Below are positions 1 to 13,371 of a stretch of 64,000 nucleotides of DNA, one piece after another (position 1 is the first letter of the stretch; each line of letters opens with the position of its first letter). Source of the DNA: Leucobacter sp. UT-8R-CII-1-4. Lineage in GTDB: Bacteria > Actinomycetota > Actinomycetes > Actinomycetales > Microbacteriaceae. The position numbers and the translations under genes are program-made. The stretch covers positions 248,001 to 312,000 of the forward strand of contig NZ_JASCRS010000003.1 in assembly GCF_030010235.1 (NCBI RefSeq), read 5' to 3'. A model generated the notes under the pieces. The model saw nothing but the letters and a program-made list of their open reading frames with translations. It ran no database searches and had not been told where the DNA came from.

Positions 1-15
1 CGCAAGAATAGAGGG

Positions 16-642
16 GTGGAGTATCAGACCATCGCGAAACCGGCCGCGGCCGAACTCGAGATCTCGCGCTCACGATTTCTCACGAGAATCGAACGCGTAG
101 AAACCGAGGCTGAAGCCCGAGCAGTGATTGCTGCCGCACGCGACGAGCACCCGAAGGCCAGGCATCACTGCAGCGCATTTGTGCTTGGACCTGGCCAGCG
201 CACCCAGCGCTCGAACGATGATGGTGAGCCGGGCGGCACAGCCGGTGCGCCCATGCTTGATGCGCTTACGAGCGCTGGTCTGAGCGATGTGGTCGCGGTG
301 GTGACTCGTTATTTTGGTGGTGTCTTGCTTGGCGCTGGCGGCCTTACCCGGGCCTACCGTGCTGCGGTGGCCGATGCGGTACTGAACGCCGACCGGGTCA
401 CCCGAGCGCAGCGTCAGGAGGTGCTGGTTCGCACCTCCTACGATGTTGCCGCGCAGCTTGAGGCTGAGGCGAGACGTCGCGGCTGGATCGTCGGTGAGGC
501 GGCCTATAGCGATGTGGTCGAGCGCGCTTTTGCGGTCGCCGCTGGTGAGGTCGAACCGCTCGTGGCCTTGGCCGCAGAGTTGAGTGCGGGCGCAGCTGAA
601 GCGACGCTACAAGAAATCAACTACGTGGATTTGCCCGCTTAA
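16..642 (+). CDS. yigZ: YigZ/IMPACT family protein (UPF0029)
   Basis: A 208-residue protein of the usual size for the YigZ/IMPACT family. The N-terminal UPF0029 domain (about residues 15-125) carries the family signature SNDDGEPGGTAGAP at residues 66-79. The C-terminal part (about 140-195) fits the small DUF1949 domain. The family is linked to translation control in eukaryotes; the bacterial role is not settled, so no reaction is assigned. The start is a GTG close to the window edge, directly after a GAGGGG purine run, so a start further upstream cannot be excluded. The gene converges on xthA and the two stop codons share a TTAA at 639-642. Confidence 0.85.
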   Translation: MEYQTIAKPAAAELEISRSRFLTRIERVETEAEARAVIAAARDEHPKARHHCSAFVLGPGQRTQRSNDDGEPGGTAGAPMLDALTSAGLSDVVAVVTRYFGGVLLGAGGLTRAYRAAVADAVLNADRVTRAQRQEVLVRTSYDVAAQLEAEARRRGWIVGEAAYSDVVERAFAVAAGEVEPLVALAAELSAGAAEATLQEINYVDLPA

Positions 643-1520
643 CCGAAGATCATCGGCCGATCGTATTCGTCTTCAAAGGTGTCGCCGAGTAGGGTCGGGT
701 CGATATCGCAGACCACCGGAACGTGGTCGCTCGGGCCATCACCCTTGCGTTCGTCGCGGTGAATTGACGCATCGGTGACGGTGTCGGCGAACGCCTGCGA
801 GCCCATGATGAAGTCAATTCGCATGCCCTCGTTGCGTGGAAATCGCAGCTGCTTGTAGTCCCAGAAGGTGTAGCCCTCTGGCACAATCGGACGCACAACA
901 TCTTGCACAGTTGGCAGGAACGCTTCGAATGTTTTGCGCTCAACCGGAGATACATGGGTGCTCACACCCTCAATAAACGTTGGATCGCCCATGTCTGCTG
1001 GCAGTGGGGCGATATTGAAGTCACCCATCAGTGCGAGTGGTAGCTCGGGGTCTTCTGCGATCCAGCGTTCTGCATTCGCGCGGAGCGCGTTCAGCCACTC
1101 AAGCTTGTATTCAAAATGCGGATCGTCGAGCGAGCGGCCATTGGGCACGTAGAGGCTCCACAGGCGCAGGTCGCCAACGGTTACGCCGAGGGCACGTGCT
1201 TCAAGCGGCAGACCATTCGGGCCTTCTCCTTGTACGGCTTCTTGGCCCTTGATCGGCTTGCCAAACCCGGGCATGCCTTCGAAGCCACGGGCGACGTCGG
1301 TCATTTCGTGGCGGCTCGCAAAGGCAACACCGTTCCACTGGTTGAGGCCGTGAATTTCGAGCTGGTAACCGGCCTGCTCAAACAGTTCGACCGGAAACTG
1401 CTCTGGCTTGCACTTGATCTCTTGCATCGCCAGTACGTCGATGTCTTCGCGAACGAGCCAGTCGACCACTCGTGGGGCGCGGGTACGAATAGAGTTCACG
1501 TTCCAAGTGGCGATACGCAT
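639..1520 (-). CDS. xthA: Exodeoxyribonuclease III family (first paralogue)
   Basis: AP endonuclease/3'-5' exonuclease of the endonuclease-exonuclease-phosphatase fold, 293 residues, acting in base-excision repair. The start MRIATWNVNSIR carries the conserved Asn residues, LAMQE supplies the metal-binding Glu at residue 34, GDFNIAP the central Asp/Asn pair, and SDHVPVV the C-terminal Asp-His. The frame runs upstream to 1583, but those 21 residues lie over a hairpin and do not look like family sequence, so the ATG at 1520 is preferred. A second, diverged paralogue lies at 22592-23446. Function is firm from motifs. Confidence 0.93.
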   Translation of the reverse strand: MRIATWNVNSIRTRAPRVVDWLVREDIDVLAMQEIKCKPEQFPVELFEQAGYQLEIHGLNQWNGVAFASRHEMTDVARGFEGMPGFGKPIKGQEAVQGEGPNGLPLEARALGVTVGDLRLWSLYVPNGRSLDDPHFEYKLEWLNALRANAERWIAEDPELPLALMGDFNIAPLPADMGDPTFIEGVSTHVSPVERKTFEAFLPTVQDVVRPIVPEGYTFWDYKQLRFPRNEGMRIDFIMGSQAFADTVTDASIHRDERKGDGPSDHVPVVCDIDPTLLGDTFEDEYDRPMIFG

Positions 1521-1570
1521 GCCCACAAGCGTACCGGGTGCCACCTGATCGGGGGCGGGGCCAAAAAGAA

Positions 1571-1609
1571 AAGCCCCGCACATCTCGACTTGCTCGATGG
1601 GCGGGGCTT
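1571..1609 (-). terminator. Hairpin terminator insulating xthA
   Basis: AAGCCCCGC at 1571-1579 pairs with GCGGGGCTT at 1601-1609. Read on the minus strand the stem is followed by a T-rich run. It would stop leftward transcription from the island before it reaches xthA. Confidence 0.6.
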
Positions 1610-1627
1610 CATTTGGAGGGGCTATCA

Positions 1628-2068
1628 GTGGCTGACTCGCAAAATTGGAGGGCCCTTCTCGGCTTCATTCGCGACTACGTTCCTCGCGAGACATTGGAGC
1701 ATTCTTGCTCGTCCATTGTGCCGGGGTACGAGGTATCGACCGAGAGAAAGCAGACTCAGCACCGGTTGTCTGCCCTTGAGATTAAGGAGATCATTCGTCA
1801 GTTTCGCGAAGGAAAGACCACTCTGGCGCTCGCAGACGCCTCTGGATGCAGCCGGACGACGATCAGTCGACATCTTCAAAATGCAGGCCTCTCAGCGCGC
1901 GAGAAACGCTTTGATGAGGCGCAGCTGCGTGAGATGGAGCGGCTCTATGAGACGGGGCTCTCACTCGACAAAGTTGGCGAGCGGTTCGGCACGACGGGAA
2001 CCACGGCGACGAAGTATCTTCGGGCATGTGGAGTGCAGATCAGGGATAGGCACGACTGGTTGCGATAG
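1628..2068 (+). CDS. Helix-turn-helix protein, recombinase-associated type
   Basis: A 146-residue protein with two consecutive resolvase-like HTH units. The first covers roughly residues 50-85 (LSALEIKEIIRQFREGKT onward); the second covers about 95-135 (ARLYxxGxSLDKVGERFG-like). Small two-HTH proteins of this kind are common beside large serine recombinases in actinobacterial islands (family knowledge, from memory). The GTG start at 1628 is chosen because a TTGGAGGGG ribosome site lies at 1613-1621; the frame is open further upstream but crosses the terminator hairpin. It marks the left end of the island, with the recombinase remnant at 6245-7385 marking the right end. Possible roles are a recombination accessory factor or a regulator. 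Confidence 0.6.
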   Translation: MADSQNWRALLGFIRDYVPRETLEHSCSSIVPGYEVSTERKQTQHRLSALEIKEIIRQFREGKTTLALADASGCSRTTISRHLQNAGLSAREKRFDEAQLREMERLYETGLSLDKVGERFGTTGTTATKYLRACGVQIRDRHDWLR

Positions 2069-2082
2069 CTGATGCTGCTCCA

Positions 2083-3444
2083 TTACCAGTAGATCGCGAT
2101 GATTTCCGTATCTATGAGGTTTTCCGGTGCCTGTACTGCCTTGAGTTTTTGATTGCTCGAGGCAGCGGAGGGCTGGGATTCAAGAACAGGGAAAAGAGAC
2201 AATCCCTCGGCGGCACGGGCTTCTTCCCTTATCTCAAGGTCACGATCTGGATGCAGGGCCTTGTCGGTAAGTCCTTCTAGATAGGTTCTTATCAGTTTGA
2301 ATGCGGTTTTCTGGTCGGATACCGAAGCGGAGCGAAGGCTGAGCACATCTAATTGTTCGGAGATACACTCATCTTGTTCCGCATTCAGCCTGACATCCAG
2401 TTCAGAAGTCACAGATTCGTGATACCGAAGGAGTGCAGCTCGCAGCTTCACGCTATTGGCATCCGGTGCAGTCTTTTGCGGTGTGAATGAAACCCTGCCT
2501 GCAGCGTGTATTTGGCCCACGAGGTCTGGAACCATCTCACGGAAGAGATCTGCTAGCTTCACAGGAGTCCAAGAGGCTTGAACTCCACTTCGAGAGATGC
2601 GACCAAGCACAGTGAACTCGGCCTCTGAGAACAAGACTCGGCGTAGATCCTTCCAATATGCCAAGTGCTCTGTAACCCCCACTAGTTCCAAAGGCTCAGC
2701 TGCAACGTCTAACTCTTCAATGAGCTGGTTATGCACGATATACCGAGTGTTCTCCACGTTGATGACTGAGTAGTCGATCACCTGCGCTCGGATGGGAACC
2801 AGCCCAGCCAGGAGACGCTCGAGAATCTTCTTTACTGGTTGCACTTCCTGAAGGGCCGCTGCACCACCTTGGGCCGCAAACATCTCAGGATAGTCATCTG
2901 CCATGCCGGAAAGCTCACTTGTGACCGTGCTGAGATGGAACACGGGATCGGTGGAGAGTCGAACCCGAAACTCGATGAGTTCTCCTCGGACAAGGCGTTC
3001 TTCGTTGAGTAGGAGCGATGTGTCTGTAGTGGAGAGCAAGGCTTCGAGTGAAGAAGCAGGGCGCTCTGGGGTTGATTTGTCGACCAGCCTTAAGCCTGGG
3101 ATGGCACGAAAGTCCCTAAACCAAGACTGAACCGTTGACTTTCTAGACGTCTGAATTGATGTGCTGTTTGTGGTCTGAAACCGGGATGATGCACCGGCCT
3201 TGCCAGCAAGTGGGTTACTCGCTTCTAGGGAGGCTTCTAGTTCAGCTTGGAACTCATCGGAACTGCTCTCGGATCGTCCCTCCCGGAGGTCTCCTTTTAT
3301 CGAGGAGAGAAGGCTTGTCAACGTGACTTCGTCTAGGTACACAAACTCGCGAAGATTATCCTTGGAGACATCAGTCGGCTTGGACATCTCCTTTTGCTTC
3401 TTTGGCCTATTCCGCCAGCGCCGCCACCTGTCACGCAAACTCAT
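2083..3444 (-). CDS. DUF6414-like protein, partner of the AAA+ ATPase
   Basis: A 453-residue protein with no catalytic motif I can recognise. After a very basic N-terminus (many Arg/Lys in the first 20 residues) comes REFVYLDE at residues 32-39, the opening I associate with the DUF6414 family. A Ser-rich stretch (about 55-105) and a globular alpha/beta region follow. No signal peptide or membrane helix is evident. Its ATG overlaps the stop of the AAA+ gene by 4 bp (ATGA, 3441-3444) and has a GGAGG site 7 bases upstream, so the two are translationally coupled. GC content is visibly lower than in flanking housekeeping genes. The family name is from memory and should be checked; the role is unknown. 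Confidence 0.7.
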   Translation of the reverse strand: MSLRDRWRRWRNRPKKQKEMSKPTDVSKDNLREFVYLDEVTLTSLLSSIKGDLREGRSESSSDEFQAELEASLEASNPLAGKAGASSRFQTTNSTSIQTSRKSTVQSWFRDFRAIPGLRLVDKSTPERPASSLEALLSTTDTSLLLNEERLVRGELIEFRVRLSTDPVFHLSTVTSELSGMADDYPEMFAAQGGAAALQEVQPVKKILERLLAGLVPIRAQVIDYSVINVENTRYIVHNQLIEELDVAAEPLELVGVTEHLAYWKDLRRVLFSEAEFTVLGRISRSGVQASWTPVKLADLFREMVPDLVGQIHAAGRVSFTPQKTAPDANSVKLRAALLRYHESVTSELDVRLNAEQDECISEQLDVLSLRSASVSDQKTAFKLIRTYLEGLTDKALHPDRDLEIREEARAAEGLSLFPVLESQPSAASSNQKLKAVQAPENLIDTEIIAIYW

Positions 3445-4685
3445 TTCGACACCTCCTTCGCCTCTGTGCGTTTAGGTCTTTGCGAAACTCGTTCATACGC
3501 AACGGAGACATCTTCAGGCGATATGGCCTCACGATCATCACCGGCTGCGACCAATGCTGCTTCTGTCCATATTGCAGTGAGCTCTGCTGCGGACCATCCT
3601 TCTGTTAGGAGGGCGATATCCTCAAGCGGTAGTTCTCCGATGGTTTCAAGTTGGTTCGCGCGCACGCTAAGAATCTCAAACCGGTCCTGCATGGTGGGCA
3701 GGCCAAACTCAATTTCCCAATCGAAGCGACCGGGCCTGGTTAGAGCGGGATCGAGAGCTTCTACCCGGTTGGTGGCCGCAATAACCATCACGCTTTTACC
3801 TTGATCGTCGAATCCGTCCATCAGCGTAAGGAACTGAGCGACTAGCTTCCGAGATGATTCATGAGAATCACCACCACGATGCTCCGCAATACTGTCGATC
3901 TCGTCGAAAAAAATGATCGCTCGTCCCGATTCGCACTTTGTGGCCGCCTCGAAAATCTTTCGAAGCGTATCCTCAGAACTGCCAACATATTTGCTTACGA
4001 TCGATGGTCCACTTACGAGAAAGAACTCCGCTTTGGATTCTCGTGCAATGATGCGTGCCAAGTGAGTCTTGCCGGTGCCAGGCGGTCCTGTGAAGAGGAC
4101 TCCTTTAACTGGACGTGCTCTGATCTTTTCCAGCTTCTCTCGTCGCTCTAGCTGTGTTTCAATAAGTTCGCGAGCACGCTCCTTAACGCGAGGATAGCCT
4201 CCAAAATCGCTAAATCCCGCGCCTAAACTGCTGGCATCCCAAAGGTAAGCTTCCTTGACATCATCGACATCAAGCTCTTGACTCAGCAGACTGCTCCGAA
4301 TCGGAGTGTCAGCAATGACTCGAATTACACCGTCAAAGGCGTTGTATTCAATGGTGTTGCCCTTTTCTACCTCAATATCGAAGTCGTTTGACAGCACCTT
4401 GAGCTCATGATTGAGCTCTACTACAACGGTATTGTCTTCGAGAACCTCGCGAACCACGGCCACAGAGTTGGTCTCTTTCCATAAGCCCGGTGGCGTGGAT
4501 TCCCAGCCGGCCGAACCAAGAATCAAGACATCTCCCGGGGCGACATGTTGGAGATTTGCTAGGCCGGTGGCGCGACCTGTGCCTCCCCCTGGGAGCCGGT
4601 AGTGGATAGTGGCGTTCTCTGCGTCTACCCTGACGGCTTTCACTAAGTTTCCTACAGGACCAAGTGCCTCAAGATCTTCAATCAT
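3441..4685 (-). CDS. Classic-clade AAA+ ATPase (CDC48/FtsH/ARC-like)
   Basis: A 414-residue single-ring AAA+ ATPase. Residues 1-140 form a beta-rich N-domain reminiscent of the OB domains of proteasome-associated ATPases. The AAA core follows: Walker A GPPGTGKT at 200-207, aromatic pore loop KYVG at 232-235, Walker B IIFFDEID at 257-264, sensor-1 ATN at 304-306, and the Arg finger region RPGRFD at 317-322. A C-terminal lid (about 345-400) completes it. All ATPase residues are present, so an active unfoldase or remodeller is expected. There is no protease domain, so it must act with a partner, most simply the coupled DUF6414-like protein downstream. Start ATG has GGAGG 7 bases upstream. Island location and lower GC suggest transfer. 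Confidence 0.88.
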   Translation of the reverse strand: MIEDLEALGPVGNLVKAVRVDAENATIHYRLPGGGTGRATGLANLQHVAPGDVLILGSAGWESTPPGLWKETNSVAVVREVLEDNTVVVELNHELKVLSNDFDIEVEKGNTIEYNAFDGVIRVIADTPIRSSLLSQELDVDDVKEAYLWDASSLGAGFSDFGGYPRVKERARELIETQLERREKLEKIRARPVKGVLFTGPPGTGKTHLARIIARESKAEFFLVSGPSIVSKYVGSSEDTLRKIFEAATKCESGRAIIFFDEIDSIAEHRGGDSHESSRKLVAQFLTLMDGFDDQGKSVMVIAATNRVEALDPALTRPGRFDWEIEFGLPTMQDRFEILSVRANQLETIGELPLEDIALLTEGWSAAELTAIWTEAALVAAGDDREAISPEDVSVAYERVSQRPKRTEAKEVSK

Positions 4686-4756
4686 TCGGGCCTCCTACGC
4701 AAAGAGGCTCCAACGAACTCGGCCGACTTCTTAGATGCGTTCTCATGTTGTTCCTG

Positions 4757-4784
4757 AGTATGACATTTACCTCATACAAGTCAA
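4757..4784 (-). promoter_or_regulatory. Promoter with embedded palindrome for the AAA+/DUF6414 operon
   Basis: On the minus strand there is a -35-like TTGACT (4779-4784) and a -10-like CATACT (4757-4762) with a 16-base spacer. A perfect inverted repeat GTATGA-N8-TCATAC occupies 4758-4777, exactly between and overlapping the two elements, as a repressor operator would. The rest of the 290-base gap 4686-4976 shows no gene. Confidence 0.45.
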
Positions 4785-4976
4785 GTCCTCACTGATTTGG
4801 CCATTCATCGCTTAGTTCAGACGGGGCTGTTCTTTAGTTGAGGCCGACTTGTCGCTCTAGATCACAGTCCTCCTGAGGCGCTTTTAGGTCCGTGGTCCGA
4901 TCCTTTGAAAAACGGGTGTGCTCGATGCTGAATTCGATTAGTAGAGCTGCGCAGGAACCCTGAGTGAACCACTCCC

Positions 4977-5843
4977 CTACTCTTCCGGGGTCTCTAATGC
5001 TTCTAGTCCTTCTTCGCTGATCGGAGGCAGAAGATCCCATAGTCCATCAGACTCGAGATCGCAGTCACAGTACGTGAATTGATCGCCACAACGAGGACAC
5101 TCCTCCACGCAACATCCAGGTCCATGCAACTCACCGAGTCTGCATCCACAGTCTCGACAGTGCTCCCGTGGAACGTACCCCTCTCTTCGAGTTTCCTCCC
5201 AATGGGACTCACGCCCCCAGTGAATGCGCTGGAAAATTATACCTTCGCAGGACACCTCTGGGTATTTCTGTGCGGTGAGAAGCTTGTGAGGCCAACTTCG
5301 ATGCATGGAGCGCCCTTGAAACTCGACGAACTCGCTGCGAAACTCTTGGACCATCTGGGCCGCCGTAGGAGCATTCGCCACTGACAAATGCTGGGTCAAA
5401 CCGCCTTGAAAATGAGTCAGATGAAATGAATCAAGAAACTCAAAGATCAGAAGGTAGTTCTCCCGCACTTCATGTATCAACAAGTCGGTCTCATAGTGGG
5501 TTATGGCGTTACGCCATTTGATTGCCTGGTCAATGGCTGCAACATCACGAGGTTCGATTGTGACCTCTACGGACCGCAAACGCTCTAGAGCGCGTTCAAG
5601 CGAAACTGTTCTATTCGGTCGATCAACATTCTCAAAAAGTAGGAGCCTGTGTTCCTCGTGGAGCCGATGCTTCAGGAGCAACTCAAGAGCATGGACAAGA
5701 TTTAGAACCGCAAACTTCCACTGGCCGGGATCTTCTGCGGCCTGAGCTACCTTGGCTAGCGACTCGTTCAAGGAGTCATATGCGTTTTCGAGAAGTGAAA
5801 GCTTTAGAGATACGATTCTTTGCTCCGCATTCTCGGCATCCAT
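4977..5843 (-). CDS. HEPN-like protein with C-terminal cysteine cluster
   Basis: A 288-residue protein. The N-terminal half is all-helical and carries RNAITH at residues 111-116, matching the Rx4-6H active-site motif of HEPN ribonucleases, preceded by a typical HEPN helix (about 45-60). The C-terminal part is rich in Cys (199, 229, 232, 234, 244, 245, 249, 252, 259, 261) and probably binds zinc. This suggests RNA cleavage with a nucleic-acid or partner-binding tail. It lies 57 bases after the XRE regulator gene and reads the same way. HEPN proteins are frequent toxins and effectors in defence systems; the Cys-rich fusion is not one I recognise. RNase activity is inferred only from the motif. 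Confidence 0.65.
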   Translation of the reverse strand: MDAENAEQRIVSLKLSLLENAYDSLNESLAKVAQAAEDPGQWKFAVLNLVHALELLLKHRLHEEHRLLLFENVDRPNRTVSLERALERLRSVEVTIEPRDVAAIDQAIKWRNAITHYETDLLIHEVRENYLLIFEFLDSFHLTHFQGGLTQHLSVANAPTAAQMVQEFRSEFVEFQGRSMHRSWPHKLLTAQKYPEVSCEGIIFQRIHWGRESHWEETRREGYVPREHCRDCGCRLGELHGPGCCVEECPRCGDQFTYCDCDLESDGLWDLLPPISEEGLEALETPEE

Positions 5844-5900
5844 ACATTCCAGGCTATATCAGGTGTTGTTGGTCGCCTATAAATGTAGACCCTCTTGGCC

Positions 5901-6185
5901 CTATGGCTTTCCGTCGGCAACTCTCGGAGAGTCATCAGACAGGAGGTCGCGAGTATTTACGCCGAGTATTTCCGCAAGTGCAACAAGCGTCTTGAGCCTC
6001 GGGTTTGCGGCGGTACCGGGATTCGATTCGCCCTTTTCGAGCTTAAGATACGTAAAGGTTGAGATGCCCGCGGCGTGAGCGATCTTCTCTTGGCTGAGGC
6101 CCGTGGCTGCGCGCGCACGTTGGAGGCGGAGTCTGAGTTCGCGGACGAACGCTTCCCAGCTATCCGCACTCTCTTCTGTCGCCAT
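5901..6185 (-). CDS. XRE-family HTH regulator
   Basis: A 94-residue DNA-binding protein consisting almost entirely of one Cro/C1-type HTH: LQRARAATGLSQEKIAHAAG followed by the recognition helix TFTYLKLEKGESNPG. It probably represses its own operon and the HEPN gene immediately downstream, much as antitoxin or control genes do; that is inference from arrangement. An inverted repeat lies directly upstream of its ATG at 6188-6216. No sensor domain is present. It could also act on the palindrome in the AAA+ promoter, although the two repeats differ in sequence. Confidence 0.85.
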   Translation of the reverse strand: MATEESADSWEAFVRELRLRLQRARAATGLSQEKIAHAAGISTFTYLKLEKGESNPGTAANPRLKTLVALAEILGVNTRDLLSDDSPRVADGKP

Positions 6186-6187
6186 AT

Positions 6188-6216
6188 TTCCAGCGTGGAG
6201 TTACTTGATGCTGGAA
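6188..6216 (-). promoter_or_regulatory. Inverted repeat upstream of XRE gene
   Basis: TTCCAGC (6188-6194) and GCTGGAA (6210-6216) form perfect 7-base arms with a 15-base spacer, ending three bases before the XRE start codon. Likely an autoregulatory operator or a leader hairpin. Confidence 0.35.
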
Positions 6217-6244
6217 TTGCACGTGTATTCATGCCGCTATTGAA

Positions 6245-7385
6245 GTGCGCAAGTACGGCGTACTTGGAACTAATTTCTTAGGTGGCACCAACGGCAAGGC
6301 GCCCCTTGGCTACCTCAACCACCAAGGATTCGACAGCGAAAGGCGTGAGTACAGCAACGTAATTCTGGGCGAAGAGCGAACCTCGTTGGTTCGGCAGGCG
6401 TTCGAACTGTACGCCACGGGCGACTGGACGGCTGTGAAACTTGCCTCGCGCCTGAACCGTTTGGGGCCGCGCACCCTTGCAACCGCCAGGGTGTCCTCCT
6501 CGCCAATCACGGAGAGCTACGTCTACCGCATCCTCGGAAATCCCTACTACACGGGCGTGGTGCGATTCCAGGGCGTCACTTACGTTGGGCGGCACGAGCC
6601 GCTGACGGACACCGTGATGTGGCAGCGAGTGCAGGATATTCTCAAGTCGCACAATCAGGGTGAGCGCACGAGAAAGCACCCCCACTAGCTCCGCTCGACC
6701 GTTTACTGCGGTGGGAGCGGAGAACGCTTGCTCGTCAGCATGAGCTGATCGAAGACCGGGGTGCGGTGCCCGTACTTCATGTGCGCCGGACGTCACTCGA
6801 AGCGGAACGATCGTGCCATGAACGCCGTGCTGATCTATGAAGTCGAAGATAAGCTCAAAGAGCACTACCAGCAAGTGCAGCTCTCACCCCGGAGTTATGC
6901 GTCAGTGTGAAAGAAATTATCCGAGAAGGTCTGAGTGACTCACGCGAGCAAACCGAAGCCGAGCAGCGCGCCCTGAAGCTCGAAGAAGACAAACTCGAAC
7001 GCCAACAGATGAAGCTCCTTGATTCGCACTACGTTGACTCGATCCCTGTCGTCCTGCTCGGCAAAGAACAAGCTCGGATCAGTAGAAGCTTGACCGAGAT
7101 CGGGCCGCAGATGAACGCCAGCACCGTGCACGTTGAGGAGGTTGAACAGAATCTCAACCTTGCACTGGAACTCGCCGAGTGCGTTGGGCGGGTGTACCCG
7201 AGTGCGCCGGATTACATCAAGCGGTAAATGAACCAGGCTCTGTTTGAACAGGTGCTTGTGGTGCGCAACGCAGGCGACACTGACACATTCCACCTGGAAG
7301 CCGAACTGCGCGAACCATTCGTGACGCTCACAAGTCGAGAAATAAAAACCGCAGTAGCGGCACACAGGCAAGCAAAGAAAAAGAA
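6245..7385 (+). pseudogene. Decayed large serine recombinase
   Basis: Remnant of the recombinase domain and C-terminus of a large serine recombinase. The piece begins near GGTNGKAPLGYLN, so the catalytic resolvase domain is missing. The conserved linker and recombinase fold follow (ITESYVYRILGNPYYTG at about residues 90-106 of the open segment). In the same frame come a TAG at 6686-6688, a TGA at 6749-6751 inside the zinc-ribbon region, a frameshift near 6905, and a TAA at 7225-7227 just before MNQALFEQ, a usual C-terminal recombinase motif. At least four lesions make it non-functional. It presumably once mobilised the island to its left. The 3' limit is approximate. Confidence 0.8.
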
Positions 7386-7418
7386 CAGGCCGACCCTTGT
7401 GGGACGACCTGTTTCTTC
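7379..7418 (-). terminator. Terminator of tRNA-Gly
   Basis: Imperfect hairpin: AAGAACAGG (7381-7389) against CCTGTTTCTT (7408-7417) with further inner pairs. On the minus strand it is followed by a T-rich run, 60 bases downstream of the tRNA 3' end. Confidence 0.55.
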
Positions 7419-7474
7419 TGATGTTCTAAGGTCTGCTACCCAAACTTTTGTGCAGAGTTTGAGTAAGAAGACCT

Positions 7475-7548
7475 TGGAGGGGCCGACGGGAATCGAACCC
7501 GCGTTCTCAGCTTGGGAAGCTGATGTCTTACCATTAGACGACGGCCCC
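7475..7548 (-). tRNA. tRNA-Gly(CCC)
   Basis: Complete cloverleaf on the minus strand. The acceptor GGGGCCG (5' end at 7548) pairs with CGGCCCC, the D-arm is GTC-TAATGGTA-AGAC, the anticodon loop is TTCCCAA, giving anticodon CCC (codon GGG), and the T-arm is CGGG-TTCGAAT-CCCG. The CCA end is encoded (7475-7477). It borders the island containing the recombinase remnant, although large serine recombinases do not usually use tRNA genes as targets. Confidence 0.95.
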
Positions 7549-7604
7549 GAAGAGGCACAAGGCCTCAACGGATCAACCCTATCAAGGCTGACCCATCTGT
7601 CCTA

Positions 7605-8954
7605 CTATTCGGCCGGGGCCTCTTCAGCAGGTGCTTCGGCGGCTGGCTGGCAGACTGCGCGCTCGGCGAGTACTGCGGTCTGGTCTTCGACGGTCCACTC
7701 CACAGGGTTGCCTGCGACGGCTGCCAGTTGGAAGGCGAGCGCGCGCACGAATCCTGCGCCAGCGCTCGAGTTGTTCAGCGAAACCACGACTGTGAAGTTG
7801 TTTACGGGGTCGTGGTAGGCGGCGGTGAGTGTGCCGGTGATGGCGCCGCTTTGACCGTAGAGGGTGCCCTGCTTTTCGAGTCCGAAGGTCCAGCCGTTGG
7901 TTGGTGGGGCTGGTGCCTCTTCGCCTTCGGCTGGAGGTTCAGCGCCTTCGGCGGGCGGTGGAACGGTAAGCGTTGTTACGAGTTCTGCTGACTTCTGGCC
8001 GTAGCCGCCCGAAACGTAGTGCTCGTAGAATTTCTTCAGGTCGCTGACCGTGGTCACGGTTGCGCCTGCGCCGCCGAGCATCGATGGGCTGACGTGCGGA
8101 ACTGCGGTTGGATCAACTGCGACAGTTTCACCTTCGGCCTCGCCGGGTACGTTGCAAACTGGCGCACCACCGCTCGAGGAGTAGGTGAGGCCGTTCATGC
8201 CGCCCTTTGGCAGATCGAGCTGCGTATTCATGTCGCGCGGGTAGTCGGAGTTTGACATATCTGCGGGGCCGAAGATTCGGTCTTCGAGCAGCTGAGCAAT
8301 AGGGGTGCCGGTGCTTTCGCGCAGTGCGCGGGCGATCAGCAGTGCATTGGTGTCAGACGCGTGAACTTCGGTGCCTGGTGCATTTACCGGTGAGTGCGGC
8401 AGCGCGTGCGCCAGCAGCTCGCGGTCAGACCAGGGCCTTGTGGGGTTGTTTGCGTAGATGTCTACAAGCGTCGAGTCTTTGAAATCGGCGAGGCCGGAAG
8501 TCGCGTTGCAGAGTTCGCCGTAGGTAATGTCGTCAAGGCCGACCTGGCGAGGCAGATCTTTCGACAGCTTGCGATCGAGTTTGAGCTTGCCCTGCTCGAC
8601 CTGGTCGAGTACCAGTGCGCACATCACGGGCTGTGAGGCTTGGGCTGCGCGAATGGGTGCGTTCGCGGTAATGCCGTCGCCGTAGCCGTGCACGTATTCA
8701 CCCGAGCCTGTCCATACGCCGACGATGGCGTTTGATGACTGGCTCAGTTGCATTGCGTTGGCGATTGCCTCATCAATGCTGCCGGCGAGGCCTGCGTCAA
8801 TGGTGTTTACTTCGCCGTTTCCGCCACCGAACCCGTTTCCGGTGCAACCGGTGAGGGTGAGGGCAGCTGCGGCAAGCAGCGAGATGGCGGCGATGCCCCT
8901 GCGTCGTGTCCGTGTTACAGCCACTGGTCCCCGATCTCTTTTATCTATACGCAT
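7605..8954 (-). CDS. Lipoprotein of the serine beta-lactamase/PBP fold lacking catalytic residues
   Basis: A 449-residue secreted lipoprotein with a signal peptide of basic and hydrophobic residues and lipobox LTGC at 34-37 (acylated Cys37). The rest follows the class C beta-lactamase/D-Ala carboxypeptidase fold. The motif positions are substituted: where SxxK is expected the sequence reads QASQ (105-108), the YxN position reads ASD within HASDTN, and the HxG position reads QSG. A hydrolase is therefore unlikely; a binding or scaffold role at the cell surface is more plausible. The ATG at 8954 is chosen over the longer frame (to 9263) because it starts the signal peptide; a GTG 11 codons further in has a better purine run. 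The C-terminus has a proline/glutamate-rich tail. Confidence 0.8.
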   Translation of the reverse strand: MRIDKRDRGPVAVTRTRRRGIAAISLLAAAALTLTGCTGNGFGGGNGEVNTIDAGLAGSIDEAIANAMQLSQSSNAIVGVWTGSGEYVHGYGDGITANAPIRAAQASQPVMCALVLDQVEQGKLKLDRKLSKDLPRQVGLDDITYGELCNATSGLADFKDSTLVDIYANNPTRPWSDRELLAHALPHSPVNAPGTEVHASDTNALLIARALRESTGTPIAQLLEDRIFGPADMSNSDYPRDMNTQLDLPKGGMNGLTYSSSGGAPVCNVPGEAEGETVAVDPTAVPHVSPSMLGGAGATVTTVSDLKKFYEHYVSGGYGQKSAELVTTLTVPPPAEGAEPPAEGEEAPAPPTNGWTFGLEKQGTLYGQSGAITGTLTAAYHDPVNNFTVVVSLNNSSAGAGFVRALAFQLAAVAGNPVEWTVEDQTAVLAERAVCQPAAEAPAEEAPAE

Positions 8955-9058
8955 AGAAAACGTTGCGATTCTACCCTGGCGCGCTGAGAGTAAAGCCGAT
9001 CCAGCGGGGAGCGCCAAATATCGCCCATAGCATACTTCATCTGATGAATGGTGCAAAG

Positions 9059-9077
9059 TGAGGTAAACCTTACTACG
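9059..9077 (+). promoter_or_regulatory. DtxR/IdeR-like iron box
   Basis: The sequence TGAGGTAAACCTTAC agrees at 13 of its 15 positions with the left part of the DtxR/IdeR consensus TWAGGTWAGSCTWACCTWA; the outer right arm is poor. It sits just before the GTG of the heme oxygenase gene, fitting derepression under iron limitation. Confidence 0.5.
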
Positions 9078-9085
9078 ATGTACAC

Positions 9086-10162
9086 GTGAGTAACTTTGAT
9101 GTGAGCGTGGTCGATGCCGTAACAGGGCATATGAATGGGGACCACCCGGAAGACAATCTGCTGATCGTTCGCGCCTTCGGCTACCCCGAGGCGCAGGCCA
9201 GCACCATGACTGGACTCGATAGCGCCGCCGGAGTGTGGCACGTCGAAGACGCCAGCGGTGCACACGAGGTGCGTATCGAGTGGCCTAGCGGCTCGATCAA
9301 CGAGCGACCACAGATTCGTCGCGAAGTTGTGGCTCTGTACAAGAGCGCTTGCGAAAAGCTCGGCGTGCCTGCCCGCGAAGAGCACGCACCATCAGCCGGC
9401 GGACACGAGGCACATAGCCACAGCGGTCACGGCGAGCACGGTCACGGCGGCGGCAACCCGCACGCGGCACAGGGCGGCAACCCTCACGCAAAACCCGAAG
9501 ACGACGGTTCATTCTCGTACCAGATTCGTACCGCAACCTGGGGTGACCACTCAGACAGCGAAGGCGCAAGCGTGATGGAAGACATCATGCGTATGCGAGC
9601 AACCCGCGAAGAGTACATCGACCTCGTGGTGCAGCACTTTTACATGTACGAGGCACTCGAAGAGTCAGCGAAGGCGCTGGCCGAAGACGCCCGTTACGCA
9701 GCACTGCACCCAGCAGCGCTGGTGCGCGAGCAGACCCTGATCGAAGACCTCGAATTCTTGCTCGGTGAGAACTGGCGCGACGAAATCTCGGCTCACCCAG
9801 CGACCGCGGCATATGCAGCGCGTATTCGCGAGGTAACTGCTGAGGGCTGGCTGCCTGGCTTGATCGCACACCACTACACCCGATACCTCGGCGACCTTTC
9901 GGGTGGCCAGATGATTGCCAAGCGTGTGAAGAAGCAGTTCGATTTCGACCGCGCTGGCGTCGCTTTCTACGACTTCACCGAGCTCGGCGACCTTGCTGAG
10001 TTCAAGCAGGGCTACCGTGACGTGCTGAACGCACTCGGCGAATCGCTCGACGAAGCAGGCCGCCAACGCATGGTTGATGAAGTTCGCGCCTCATACCGAT
10101 TTAACTCACAGATCTTCACCGAGATGAAGCAGGCCGTCGAAACTGCGACAGTCTCCTCTTAA
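9086..10162 (+). CDS. DUF2470-heme oxygenase fusion
   Basis: A 358-residue cytosolic enzyme predicted to open the heme ring to biliverdin, CO and Fe2+ for iron acquisition. The N-terminal DUF2470 domain (about 6-85) is typical of HugZ-like heme-degrading proteins. A His/Gly-rich linker (about 100-135) could bind metal. The C-terminal heme oxygenase domain (about 145-350) has a candidate proximal heme ligand at His155 (TWGDHSD) and the distal-helix motif GDLSGG. Start is a GTG, preceded by an iron-box-like sequence. The gene stands alone, divergent from the lipoprotein gene. The linker between the domains is unusually His-rich. Confidence 0.9.
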   Translation: MSNFDVSVVDAVTGHMNGDHPEDNLLIVRAFGYPEAQASTMTGLDSAAGVWHVEDASGAHEVRIEWPSGSINERPQIRREVVALYKSACEKLGVPAREEHAPSAGGHEAHSHSGHGEHGHGGGNPHAAQGGNPHAKPEDDGSFSYQIRTATWGDHSDSEGASVMEDIMRMRATREEYIDLVVQHFYMYEALEESAKALAEDARYAALHPAALVREQTLIEDLEFLLGENWRDEISAHPATAAYAARIREVTAEGWLPGLIAHHYTRYLGDLSGGQMIAKRVKKQFDFDRAGVAFYDFTELGDLAEFKQGYRDVLNALGESLDEAGRQRMVDEVRASYRFNSQIFTEMKQAVETATVSS

Positions 10163-10186
10163 CTCACCTCGCCGCCCACACGATCT

Positions 10187-11311
10187 ATGCTTGATCGCGT
10201 GAGTAGCGAAACCTTGTCCCACACCGCACCTCGACCTCGAGTGGCGGTGTGGGACAACGCACGTTTTGTGCTGATTTTGCTTGTTGTTGTGGCACACGTC
10301 ATCTCAACAATTCGGTCTCAAACTCCGCTCGGTTGGGGGCTTTACGCCTTCATCTATCTCTTTCATATGCCAGCGATGATCGCGCTTTCTGGTTTGTTCT
10401 CGAAAGCCGATGTGACGCTCAAAACGGTGCGATCAACCGTGCAGCTCTTGGTCACCTGGTTGGGCTGGGAAGTTATCTGGGCACTCATCCACTTCTTCGC
10501 TGGTGGCCGAGACCTGTCGAAGAACTGGTTGGTGGCCCCGGCATGGACACTGTGGTTTCTGGTCACCCTCGCCACGATGCGAATTCTGCTGCCCTACATC
10601 GTGCGACTCAAGCACCCATTACTCTTCTCAATCGCGCTGGCGCTCGTGGCTGGCCTCAGCCCCGCTATCGGTGGACAGTTTTCGGCATCACGTACGCTCT
10701 GCTTCTTGCCGTTTTTTGTTGCAGGCTGGCTCATCACGAACCGCGGGTGGCTCAGCGGTCAATGGTTTACTGCGCCGGATCGCAAGACCCGAGCCATCGC
10801 TGCTGGTGCGCTCGCAGTGATCGCACTCGGGGTGGCGCTGCTCGCTCCGATTCGCAAGGAATGGCGGGTTGATACTTGGGTTGTTTGGCGCGACAACTAT
10901 GCCTGGCTTTTTGATCATGCGCCAGTGTTCGGTTGGTCACCGACTGAGTGGTGGGCGATTGCTCTTGGTGGTGCCGGAGTGCGCTTGCTGCTGATCCTGG
11001 TTGCTGCGGCGATGACCCTTGCGCTTTTGATCCTGGTGCCGCGTGGGCACAGCTTCATCACGGTGTGGGGCACCCGAACGCTTTACGTGTATCTATTGCA
11101 CGGTCTGGTCGTTATGGCGCTGCGATCTTCGGGTGCGGTGGCCTGGTTTGGCGAGTTCGGGGAGGCCGGTGTGCTGATGCTGGTCGCGCTCGGAATCGCG
11201 ATCACCCTGCTGCTTTCTATGCGCTGGATCACGAAGGTCTTCCGGCCATTGGTTGAGCCAAAGATCGACTGGATCTTTGCGAGGGCCGACGAGAGCATCG
11301 TCAAAAAATAG
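10187..11311 (+). CDS. Integral membrane acyltransferase (acyltransferase-3 family)
   Basis: A 374-residue protein with about ten hydrophobic segments. The N-terminal motif WDNARFVLILLVVVAHV matches the (R/D)xxxxxxxVxxH signature of acyltransferase-3 proteins (fucose 4-O-acetylase-like), which acylate cell-surface sugars. Substrate is unknown. The ATG at 10187 and a GTG at 10199 are both possible starts. It follows the heme oxygenase by 24 bases and may be cotranscribed, but no functional link is evident. Confidence 0.8.
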   Translation: MLDRVSSETLSHTAPRPRVAVWDNARFVLILLVVVAHVISTIRSQTPLGWGLYAFIYLFHMPAMIALSGLFSKADVTLKTVRSTVQLLVTWLGWEVIWALIHFFAGGRDLSKNWLVAPAWTLWFLVTLATMRILLPYIVRLKHPLLFSIALALVAGLSPAIGGQFSASRTLCFLPFFVAGWLITNRGWLSGQWFTAPDRKTRAIAAGALAVIALGVALLAPIRKEWRVDTWVVWRDNYAWLFDHAPVFGWSPTEWWAIALGGAGVRLLLILVAAAMTLALLILVPRGHSFITVWGTRTLYVYLLHGLVVMALRSSGAVAWFGEFGEAGVLMLVALGIAITLLLSMRWITKVFRPLVEPKIDWIFARADESIVKK

Positions 11312-11330
11312 CCAGCACACTTGCGCTGCA

Positions 11331-11361
11331 GTGTGTTTGGGCGCCGCAGCCCCAAACACTA
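11331..11361. terminator. Bidirectional hairpin between convergent genes
   Basis: GTGTTTGGG (11333-11341) pairs with CCCAAACAC (11351-11359). The stem ends in the stop codon of the ABC exporter and serves both convergent genes; T-runs are weak. Confidence 0.5.
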
Positions 11362-13371
11362 TTCCTGTTCTGCGACGAGCAGCTGATGCTTCGCGAGTTC
11401 GCGGTAGAGCGGCACAGTCTCGACCAGCTCGTCGTGCGTGCCCTCACCGACAACGCGGCCCTCTTCGAGCACAATGATGCGATCACTGTCGACCACGGTT
11501 GAGAGTCGGTGCGCAATCACAATGAGTGTGCGCCCGGTCGCAACCGAGTCGAGAGCCTCACGCATCAGCCGCTCATTGACTCCGTCAAGGCTTGCGGTTG
11601 ATTCATCGAGCAACAAGATTGACGGTGCACTCAGCAGAGTGCGGGCAATCGCAAGGCGTTGTTTCTCGCCGCCCGAGAGCATGATCCCGCGTTCGCCAAC
11701 CTGGGTATCGAGTGCCTCAGAAATGTTTTCTGAGGTTCGATCGATGAGGCCACCCAGGTTTACCGCGCGCAGTACACGTTCGCAGGCGGCGTCGCTGGCG
11801 TCTGGCGCACCAAGCAGCAGATTTTCGCGAAGGCTGCCCGCGAGCACGGGCGCGTCTTGCTCGACGTAACCCATTTGCGAGCGCAGCTCGGCGCGATCGA
11901 GGCTGCGCAGATCGGCGCCATGCAGTGACACGGTGCCCTGCTCTGGGTCGTAGAAACGCTCGATCAGCGAGAGCACAGTTGATTTGCCGGCACCCGAGGG
12001 GCCGACCAGTGCGACGCGTGATCCGCGCGGAACACTAAATGAAACCTCGTGCAGCACCGGTGTTTCAATGATTTCTGCCGGGGCGGCCTCGGCATCTCGT
12101 CGACCCGAGCGTCCAGAGGTGACGAGCTCACGTGCATCGACGCGCTGCGGAGCGGCCGAACGGTAGGTGAAGCTGACATCTTCGAAGCTGATTGCCGGGG
12201 CCTGTTCAACTGCGAGCTCACTGAGGGGCGCGATTCGGCCGATCGGTGAGAGCTTTGCATCGTGCTCTGTTTCGGTGGGACTTGAGGTGATTTCTTGAAT
12301 GCGCCCGAGAGCTCCGAGTGCTTGATTTACCGCCGCAATCGCGCCAAAGGCCTGGCCAAGTGGGGCAACCATCAGGAAGAGGAAGACGATAAACATCACG
12401 AGCTGAGCAATACCGATTGCGCCAGTTGCCACACGGTAGCCGCCGAGTCCCAGCACAATGAGGAAAGACAGTTGCAATGCGAGGAACGAAATTGGCACGA
12501 TGAGCGCCGAGATCTTTGCGACCTTGAGGCCAAGAACATAGGCCTCTTCGGCTTCTGCCTCGGTTGCCCGCTGCTCTCGTTCGGTCGCGCCAGCGGCGCG
12601 AATTGTGCGAATTGACGAGATTGATCGCTCTACTTGCGCGGCCAGATCGCCAACTTTTTGTTGTGCTCGGGTTACGGCTGGGCGAATTCGGGCTGAGACC
12701 AGCACCACAATCACGAGCGCGACAAGAACCACCGAGAAGGTGATGCCGAAGAGCACCGGGTCAATGATGAGCATGCCAACGAGCGCACCAACAAAAACGA
12801 GAAGGCCGCTGATCGCCTCGACCAGACCCTGCGTGAGCACGGCGCGAAGCAGGGTGGTGTCGCTGCCGACGCGTGAGACGAGATCGCCGGTGCGGCGGCG
12901 GTCAAACTCACCGATCGGTAAGTGCAGAATGCGTGAGATGAGACTGCGACGGCTGTGCAGCACAACGCCCTCGCCCATGCGCTGCAACACATAGTGCTGA
13001 AACCCGCTGAGCAGCGCGTCGATCACAACGAGCGCACTCAACACCACAAGCAGCACGCCGAGTGGTTGGCTTGATTGCACTCGCTCAATTACCTGGCCGA
13101 GCAGAACCGGCTGCACAAGCGAGGTGCCAGCGCCGATGATGCCGAGCACCAGGGCCAACGTCAGCGGGCCGCGCTGCGAAAGCAGGTAGGGGAGCAGCTG
13201 TTTGATCGAGGCTCGTGGGCCTTTTGGCTGCTGGCCTTCGCCGCGATTTACGCGACCACCACGTGTTTTTCGCGCGCGGGGTTCGCCCTGCGAAGAAGTC
13301 GACGAGGATCGGCGCTGCGCTGTGCCGGAACCATTGTGCTGAGCGGTCTGCTGATCAGAGTCTTCTGCCAC
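11359..13371 (-). CDS. ABC exporter half-transporter (membrane + ATPase)
   Basis: A 670-residue type IV ABC exporter subunit with a low-complexity charged N-terminus (about 1-55), six transmembrane helices (about 60-350) and a nucleotide-binding domain (about 390-660). The ATPase motifs are complete: Walker A GPSGAGKS, signature LSGGEKQR, Walker B LLLDEST, and the His-loop AHRLS. It probably works as a homodimer exporting a lipid, drug or peptide; the substrate is unknown. The gene lies 9 bases after the CPBP protease gene, so the two are likely cotranscribed, and a CPBP protease next to an exporter may indicate export of a processed peptide (inference). Confidence 0.9.
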   Translation of the reverse strand: MAEDSDQQTAQHNGSGTAQRRSSSTSSQGEPRARKTRGGRVNRGEGQQPKGPRASIKQLLPYLLSQRGPLTLALVLGIIGAGTSLVQPVLLGQVIERVQSSQPLGVLLVVLSALVVIDALLSGFQHYVLQRMGEGVVLHSRRSLISRILHLPIGEFDRRRTGDLVSRVGSDTTLLRAVLTQGLVEAISGLLVFVGALVGMLIIDPVLFGITFSVVLVALVIVVLVSARIRPAVTRAQQKVGDLAAQVERSISSIRTIRAAGATEREQRATEAEAEEAYVLGLKVAKISALIVPISFLALQLSFLIVLGLGGYRVATGAIGIAQLVMFIVFLFLMVAPLGQAFGAIAAVNQALGALGRIQEITSSPTETEHDAKLSPIGRIAPLSELAVEQAPAISFEDVSFTYRSAAPQRVDARELVTSGRSGRRDAEAAPAEIIETPVLHEVSFSVPRGSRVALVGPSGAGKSTVLSLIERFYDPEQGTVSLHGADLRSLDRAELRSQMGYVEQDAPVLAGSLRENLLLGAPDASDAACERVLRAVNLGGLIDRTSENISEALDTQVGERGIMLSGGEKQRLAIARTLLSAPSILLLDESTASLDGVNERLMREALDSVATGRTLIVIAHRLSTVVDSDRIIVLEEGRVVGEGTHDELVETVPLYRELAKHQLLVAEQE

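Follow-up and report, generated by a model that had tools for sequence, protein, structure and literature searches.

The DNA analysed here, which we call the window, is a stretch of 64,000 nucleotides from Leucobacter sp. UT-8R-CII-1-4 (contig NZ_JASCRS010000003.1, positions 248,001 to 312,000). Between an exonuclease III gene (exoIII) and a tRNA-Gly gene it holds a variable segment, 1537..7472, referred to below as the island. Our best explanation, advanced with moderate confidence, is that this is an acquired slot in which two independent defence-type modules were stacked on what remains of an earlier serine-recombinase element. One module joins an AAA ATPase to a protein of the family DUF6414 and is probably an uncatalogued, unfoldase-based two-gene defence module; the other joins an XRE-family regulator to a HEPN-type putative ribonuclease. 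The variable site and the linkage of the pair are well supported, and the defence role of both modules is likely, as judged from genomic context. The island as such is of a known kind, and it is the AAA-DUF6414 pair, not the island, that merits follow-up. The genome holding the window is 3.0 Mb and its assembly is 93% complete, which bounds each whole-genome negative below.

Linkage and spread of the AAA-DUF6414 pair

The two genes lie on the minus strand and overlap by 4 bp. The upstream gene (3441..4685) encodes a classical AAA ATPase with a PAN/Cdc48/FtsH-like ATPase module (PF00004, 145.7 bits against a cut-off of 21.2). The protein encoded downstream (2083..3444) matches positions 1-283 of the Pfam model DUF6414 (PF19952) at 199.9 bits against a cut-off of 25, but differs from the family at large in having a long (about 415-460 aa), AAA-linked form; its C-terminus reads ...EIIAIYW.

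Five long DUF6414 proteins were used to scan 84,980 species genomes, and 79 loci were obtained. One of these (L144) has no DUF6414 open reading frame (ORF); in 76 of the other 78 (near-duplicates included) an AAA gene lies directly upstream on the same strand, the exceptions being L104 and L127, where a DUF6414 ORF is present and no AAA was found. The two genes mostly overlap by a few bases, an approximate figure since our custom gene caller took the first possible start codon as the start. Over 44 loci the pairwise identities of AAA and DUF6414 covary (r = 0.89). In a sample of the order that was not selected for the pair, the long form was found as the window's own copy and in L031, L034 and L039, each with AAA, while none of 15 short-form DUF6414 loci (14 distinct places) had AAA within about 1.5 kb. 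In a DUF6414 sub-clade, a conserved 251-aa protein is encoded immediately upstream of AAA and co-oriented with it (L117:6985-7740, L123:6985-7740, L130:6961-7716); it is a possible third component, and the L117 copy had no Pfam and no PADLOC match.

The pair is widespread and sporadic. Its loci span Actinomycetota, Pseudomonadota, Chloroflexota and haloarchaea, yet the long form occurs in 2 of 54 genomes of the genus (own included), and DUF6414 (E <= 1e-20) in at least 4 of 396 genomes of the phylum (own included), a lower bound in that four candidates were scored per genome. Of the three other genomes in the phylum sample, two are records already in the set, with an intact pair; in the third, G557, DUF6414 is broken and the short stretch around it shows no AAA. 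DUF6414 is carried by 22 plasmid records, 8 of them from Halobacterium, and all six plasmid records opened (one being L093's own) contain the pair. Duplicate records, recognised by coordinates and lengths, were not counted as extra support: G014 is L066, G234 (L050) is L134, plasmid H5 (L148) and G546 (L190) are L093, and G641 (L189) is probably L101. In a midpoint-rooted DUF6414 tree, the window protein and four actinobacterial sequences fall into a 12-member set whose other seven members are from Pseudomonadota (98/91 support). The tree fits transfer between phyla and does not prove it.

The plasmid records would also suit a plasmid- or island-maintenance module, or a toxin-antitoxin-like one with a toxic DUF6414 under the control of the ATPase. 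The tight coupling of the two genes points the same way, as do integrases and a relaxase gene among the neighbours. However, toxin-antitoxin pairs are typically smaller than proteins of about 410 and 450 aa, so that AAA and DUF6414 are large for such a pair; no toxin domain or fold was recognised, and in six loci the pair is joined to restriction operons. We consider this explanation unlikely, and a self-contained two-gene defence unit the better description.

Conserved features of the AAA and DUF6414 proteins

Residues K206, D261, E262, N306, R317 and R320 of the AAA protein are kept in 44 of 44 sequences, and a pore-loop aromatic residue at position 233 in 43 of 44. They represent the Walker A/B, sensor 1 and arginine-finger positions and the aromatic pore loop; the residues expected of an unfoldase or translocase are all present. 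The protein is nearest to the PAN/Cdc48 ATPases and scores 218.3 bits on PRK03992 (proteasome-activating nucleotidase), under that model's cut-off of 500; no protease or peptidase domain was found in it. With the PAN/Cdc48/Mpa-type unfoldases it shares an ATPase module in which the Walker, arginine and pore-loop residues are intact. It differs from them in its partner, DUF6414, in having no HbYX-like ending of its own, and in its host: the proteasome/HslV family PF00227 was unmatched in the 93%-complete genome, whereas 10 of 14 control genomes match.

One of the nearest catalogued arrangements is that of IetAS, an anti-phage system of an AAA ATPase and a subtilisin-like protease partner. The two-gene layout with an AAA ATPase is alike, and the window AAA matches the PADLOC IetA models (best 121.5 bits). 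On NCBIfam NF042959, however, it reaches 101.9 bits, far under the cut-off of 510, and its partner is DUF6414, with no peptidase family match.

The AlphaFold2 model of DUF6414 is confident, with a mean pLDDT of 83.5 and a pTM of 0.69. Searched against the PDB and the viral models of BFVD, it had no match with E <= 0.001, and a profile search found no solved relative (best E 0.099). In a 67-sequence alignment the most conserved residues are an N-terminal REFxYLD and a C-terminal Tyr-Trp, the latter terminating what the model predicts to be a strand. REFxYLD was one of the search patterns by which DUF6414 ORFs were found. The ending is not explicable by selection alone, because 67 of 70 ORFs carrying the N-terminal search pattern, findable regardless of how they end, finish in YW. 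Of the three that do not, one (L100) has immediately after it an ORF with the ending IAIYW, and another (L122) is cut by a contig end. Short-form DUF6414 proteins in L029 and L032, which had no AAA in the stretch examined, end in -VYR, also a hydrophobic-Tyr-X sequence.

In proteasome systems, HbYX is a C-terminal docking tail, and the [hydrophobic]-Tyr-Trp ending of DUF6414 resembles it. Together with the alignment of the AAA protein to PAN/Cdc48, this raises a housekeeping protein-quality or proteasome-like machine in which DUF6414 would dock to a PAN-type AAA by an HbYX-like tail. Docking of the tail to a proteasome was rejected, the genome having no PF00227 match, and the sporadic distribution of the pair in genus and phylum also counts against such a machine. 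We regard it as highly improbable overall, and for the window's own genome it is mostly refuted.

Genomic context of the pair

The argument for defence comes from the neighbours. In six loci from five lineages (L088 and L092 are near-copies) the pair lies directly after a co-oriented restriction operon, and in five of the six the reading frames overlap (first possible starts). The operon is of type I in L066, L086, L088 and L092, with N6 methylase, specificity and HSDR_N proteins and a YgjP-like protein, and type III-like in the other two, L087 and L129, which have an N6/N4 methylase together with a ResIII protein; a gap of 115 bp precedes the pair in L129. These operons were checked gene by gene in L088 and in part in L066/L026, L086 and L092. 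One of them belongs to the second carrier in the genus (G014, the genome of L066 and L026), where the pair is located elsewhere than in the window, after HsdM, HsdS, HsdR and a YgjP-like gene, and where an OLD/Gabija-like nuclease gene adjoins it. In L049, a SIR2 gene with ThsA-like matches lies near the pair, and in L050 a HipA-like/HIRAN pair (HIRAN named by eye) matching PADLOC PDC-M03A/B.

Among 219 neighbour genes, ResIII was matched 8 times, HSDR_N 5, Phage_integrase 4, and Methylase_S, Resolvase and Mrr_cat 2 each; all are missing from the families that at least 2 of 120 control genes matched. The tallies omit 16 of the 79 loci (near-duplicates or loci without AAA), and the 219 genes are an original 220 minus two (one each from L097 and L121) plus one from L117, giving 96 + 123. 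This neighbour context supports the defence-type function that an earlier note on this DNA had suggested in comparing the layout with defence or stress islands.

The same six loci invite another explanation, that the pair is a restriction-modification accessory: the unfoldase would clear or temper restriction complexes, and solo copies would act on distant restriction systems. In restriction alleviation, ClpXP acts in this way on HsdR. The position of the pair directly after type I or type III-like operons and the overlapping frames suit such a role. Most loci, however, have no such operon adjoining the pair, and HSDR_N was unmatched in the window's own genome (no other restriction type was searched for). 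The candidate of a type I restriction enzyme in this genome was rejected, as none was found. An accessory role seems to us improbable, and we return to a defence module in its own right.

Several observations weigh against that reading too. Only 6 of 76 AAA-linked loci lie directly after a restriction operon, with the seeds used no restriction gene is seen at most of them, and the HSDR_N result from the own genome counts here as well. Many neighbours are ordinary, and housekeeping genes such as those for RecA and triosephosphate isomerase occur among them. AAA_21 and SMC_N, which the OLD-like genes also match, are found in the controls (2 and 3 members). The neighbour enrichment is indicative and not a test, because the control genes come from one order, the pair loci from several phyla, and the tallies cover the 25 commonest families. 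No sequence or fold match reveals a biochemical activity of DUF6414, which also lacks a match among the models of NCBIfam and the 2023 PADLOC library. Finally, no viral contig was confirmed as a DUF6414 carrier and no phage record was found for it, a result that a purely cellular role would equally give.

The XRE-HEPN operon

The second operon of the island is also on the minus strand. The XRE-family regulator (5901..6185; PF01381, 39.7 bits) lies 57 bp upstream of the HEPN-type gene (4977..5843), whose product has an Rx4-6H motif, RNAITH, and a C-terminal Cys/His cluster. A perfect 8+1+8 palindrome, CAAGTACG-G-CGTACTTG, lies upstream of XRE (6250..6266) and is a candidate operator. The HEPN protein is under the Pfam cut-offs (DUF3644, 15.9 against 27.6 bits; HEPN_RiboL-PSP, 15.3 against 28.4) and matches PADLOC PDC-S64 at 2.4e-22, over positions 2-119 of a 339-position model only. 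PDC-S64, a name that presumably denotes a HEPN-like single-gene defence candidate, was not mentioned in the open literature searched. The likeness is confined to the N-terminal HEPN region, which is matched in the relatives of L147 and L154 too (motifs RNNITH and RNSFVH); the window has, in addition, the C-terminal Cys domain and an XRE partner.

Relatives are rare. HEPN occurs in 2 of 297 genomes of the order, that is, in the own genome and in one (G298) among 296 others. A relative with 23% identity is carried on two Enterococcus plasmids; in the one opened, 27 bp separate it from a preceding retron RT-Toprim gene. In the phylum search 11 other genomes matched the protein, nine of them through the C-terminal cluster only; G649 matches residues 165-231, with stops, and G492 the HEPN part, with RNALTH. 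No HEPN carrier was confirmed in the scan of viral contigs. Short ORFs (103-178 aa) elsewhere in the phylum encode this Cys/His cluster as well (L155, L156, L158, L161, L165, L166), and it therefore seems to be a separate module.

The earlier note had listed the four minus-strand genes XRE, HEPN-Cys, AAA and DUF6414. All are located where it placed them, with Pfam or PADLOC matches, but their treatment as one combination is not supported. As one new four-gene system, HEPN would be the effector of AAA-DUF6414, and the genes do share a strand, an island and a similarly low GC. Against this, the stretches around the 79 pair loci yielded no HEPN homologue, and those around the two HEPN relatives examined (for G298, the surrounding 18 kb) no AAA or DUF6414. 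The regions upstream of the two operons have no 8-mer in common, on which ground a single operator for both was also rejected, and AAA has its own, weak, promoter-like site. One four-gene system is thus rejected, and we give it very little weight. We favour XRE-HEPN as a putative ribonuclease-based module apart from the AAA-DUF6414 pair.

A variable slot between exoIII and tRNA-Gly

A DNA search of 30 genomes, own included, covered 18 relatives in the genus. In three of them exoIII and tRNA-Gly are close together on one contig, at about 14.6 kb (G007), 3.8 kb (G010) and 1.2 kb (G018). Homology to the window ends at the exoIII start (1536, 1521 and 1521, respectively) and restarts at the tRNA (7477, 7473 and 7476). 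The slot carries different cargo in them: genes for hydantoinase/oxoprolinase; a D12 adenine methylase together with an HNH protein and an oxidoreductase; and a rhodanese. The window genes are therefore absent from the slot in all three, and the four-gene set is not shared at this site by all close relatives. In 8 other relatives the exoIII and tRNA matches are on one contig but at least about 30 kb apart, and 7 further ones, with matches on different contigs or one unlisted, are uninformative. The polymorphic slot and the sporadic occurrence of DUF6414 and HEPN uphold the earlier note's proposal of an island, and the reading of 1537-7472 as cargo presumably acquired horizontally into a variable slot is supported by these sequence comparisons.

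Base composition agrees with the lower GC claimed for the island. The block from XRE to DUF6414 has a GC of 0.525 against 0.587 for the whole window, and the lowest-GC 4.1-kb stretch of the window begins at 2001 (0.523; the minimum for starts beyond 8000 is 0.548). GC3 is 0.50-0.54 for DUF6414, AAA and HEPN against 0.64-0.69 for the flanking YigZ, exoIII (639-1583), beta-lactamase-like and heme oxygenase genes, the last three named by eye; that of XRE is intermediate (0.61).

At the right, a large serine recombinase remnant (6281..7260, plus strand; PF07508, 42.3 bits on ORF 6245-6688) is decayed, as had been claimed. Compared by tblastn with an intact-looking 583-aa relative in L027, it aligns over residues 176-350 in frame 2, through a stop at 6688, and over residues 390-501 in frame 1, through a stop at 7227. 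Residues 1-175 of the relative, the catalytic domain, were unmatched anywhere in 1-9200, and the Resolvase domain had no match on the two recombinase ORFs tested. Because the catalytic domain is gone, the present recombinase is unable to move the island; the remnant is a trace of an earlier element. The intact-looking relative itself (L027:7381-9132, in G005) lies about 3.4 kb from exonuclease III, the gene that also borders the window island.

At the left, the gene 1628..2068 (plus strand) encodes a tandem helix-turn-helix (HTH) DNA-binding protein (PF13384, 30.0 bits; PF02796, 24.1 bits; PHROG DNA-binding protein matches; 'tandem' by eye). The recombinase-type HTH of the earlier note holds for the domain; 'recombinase-bracketed' does not, as HTH domains only, and no recombinase catalytic domain, were found. 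In the other Leucobacter genome carrying the pair, an HTH protein of similar size (L026:14150-14632) is encoded 4.3 kb from AAA-DUF6414; the window HTH did not match it in tblastn.

The right border is tRNA-Gly(CCC) (7475..7548, minus strand), again as the earlier note had it; an Rfam scan of 1-12000 found nothing besides the tRNA. No convincing attachment-site repeat was found in the window: the only match, of 10 bp (1613 and 7474), is no better than chance, being one of two 10-mers common to the stretches compared, and an integrase attachment site at tRNA-Gly was rejected. In G007 and G010 an element of about 150 bp lies just outside tRNA-Gly (L024:16277-16430; L025 about 6786-6945). One of its borders copies the tRNA 3' end and the other is an inverted, T-arm-like copy. 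The element resembles a small repeat of the mobile or attachment type, and none was seen next to tRNA-Gly in the window. The island resembles defence islands and tRNA-side variable slots in its variable cargo (with DNA methylase and HNH genes in a relative), low GC and recombinase remains, and differs from them in having no attachment-site repeat beyond the 10-bp match.

Upstream of AAA is a promoter-like TTGACT-16-CATACT with TG ahead of the second hexamer (4757..4784, minus strand), overlapped by a 6+8+6 palindrome (4758-4777). The site is weak, because fewer such sites were found than in shuffles (1 against a mean of 3.2).

Proposed mechanism and significance

In the working model, XRE would keep its operon low, and the HEPN enzyme, most likely a regulated ribonuclease, would cleave RNA in response to a trigger, which the Cys/His domain may sense or bind. 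The AAA protein, with its conserved pore-loop and arginine residues, may form a ring that threads proteins through its pore. DUF6414 would be its adaptor or effector, recognising a target of an invading element and presenting it to the ring, or being switched by it; the -Tyr-Trp at its C-terminus, which hardly varies, probably serves in docking or assembly. More specifically, and tentatively, we propose that AAA-DUF6414 may be a widely transferred, unrecognised defence system of an unfoldase ring and a new-fold DUF6414 whose -[hydrophobic]-Tyr-Trp-COOH tail docks into the ring, HbYX-like without a proteasome, and which in some lineages has been joined to type I/III restriction operons. In the open literature searched, DUF6414 is not mentioned by its Pfam name, and at the level of abstracts we recognised no description of the pair.

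If the pair is a defence system, its DUF6414 component would lie outside the 2023 PADLOC and NCBIfam models while occurring in Actinomycetota, Pseudomonadota, Chloroflexota and haloarchaea. Through the pair, protein unfolding and not DNA cutting would be linked to restriction operons, and the strictly C-terminal Tyr-Trp would offer a concrete, testable feature.

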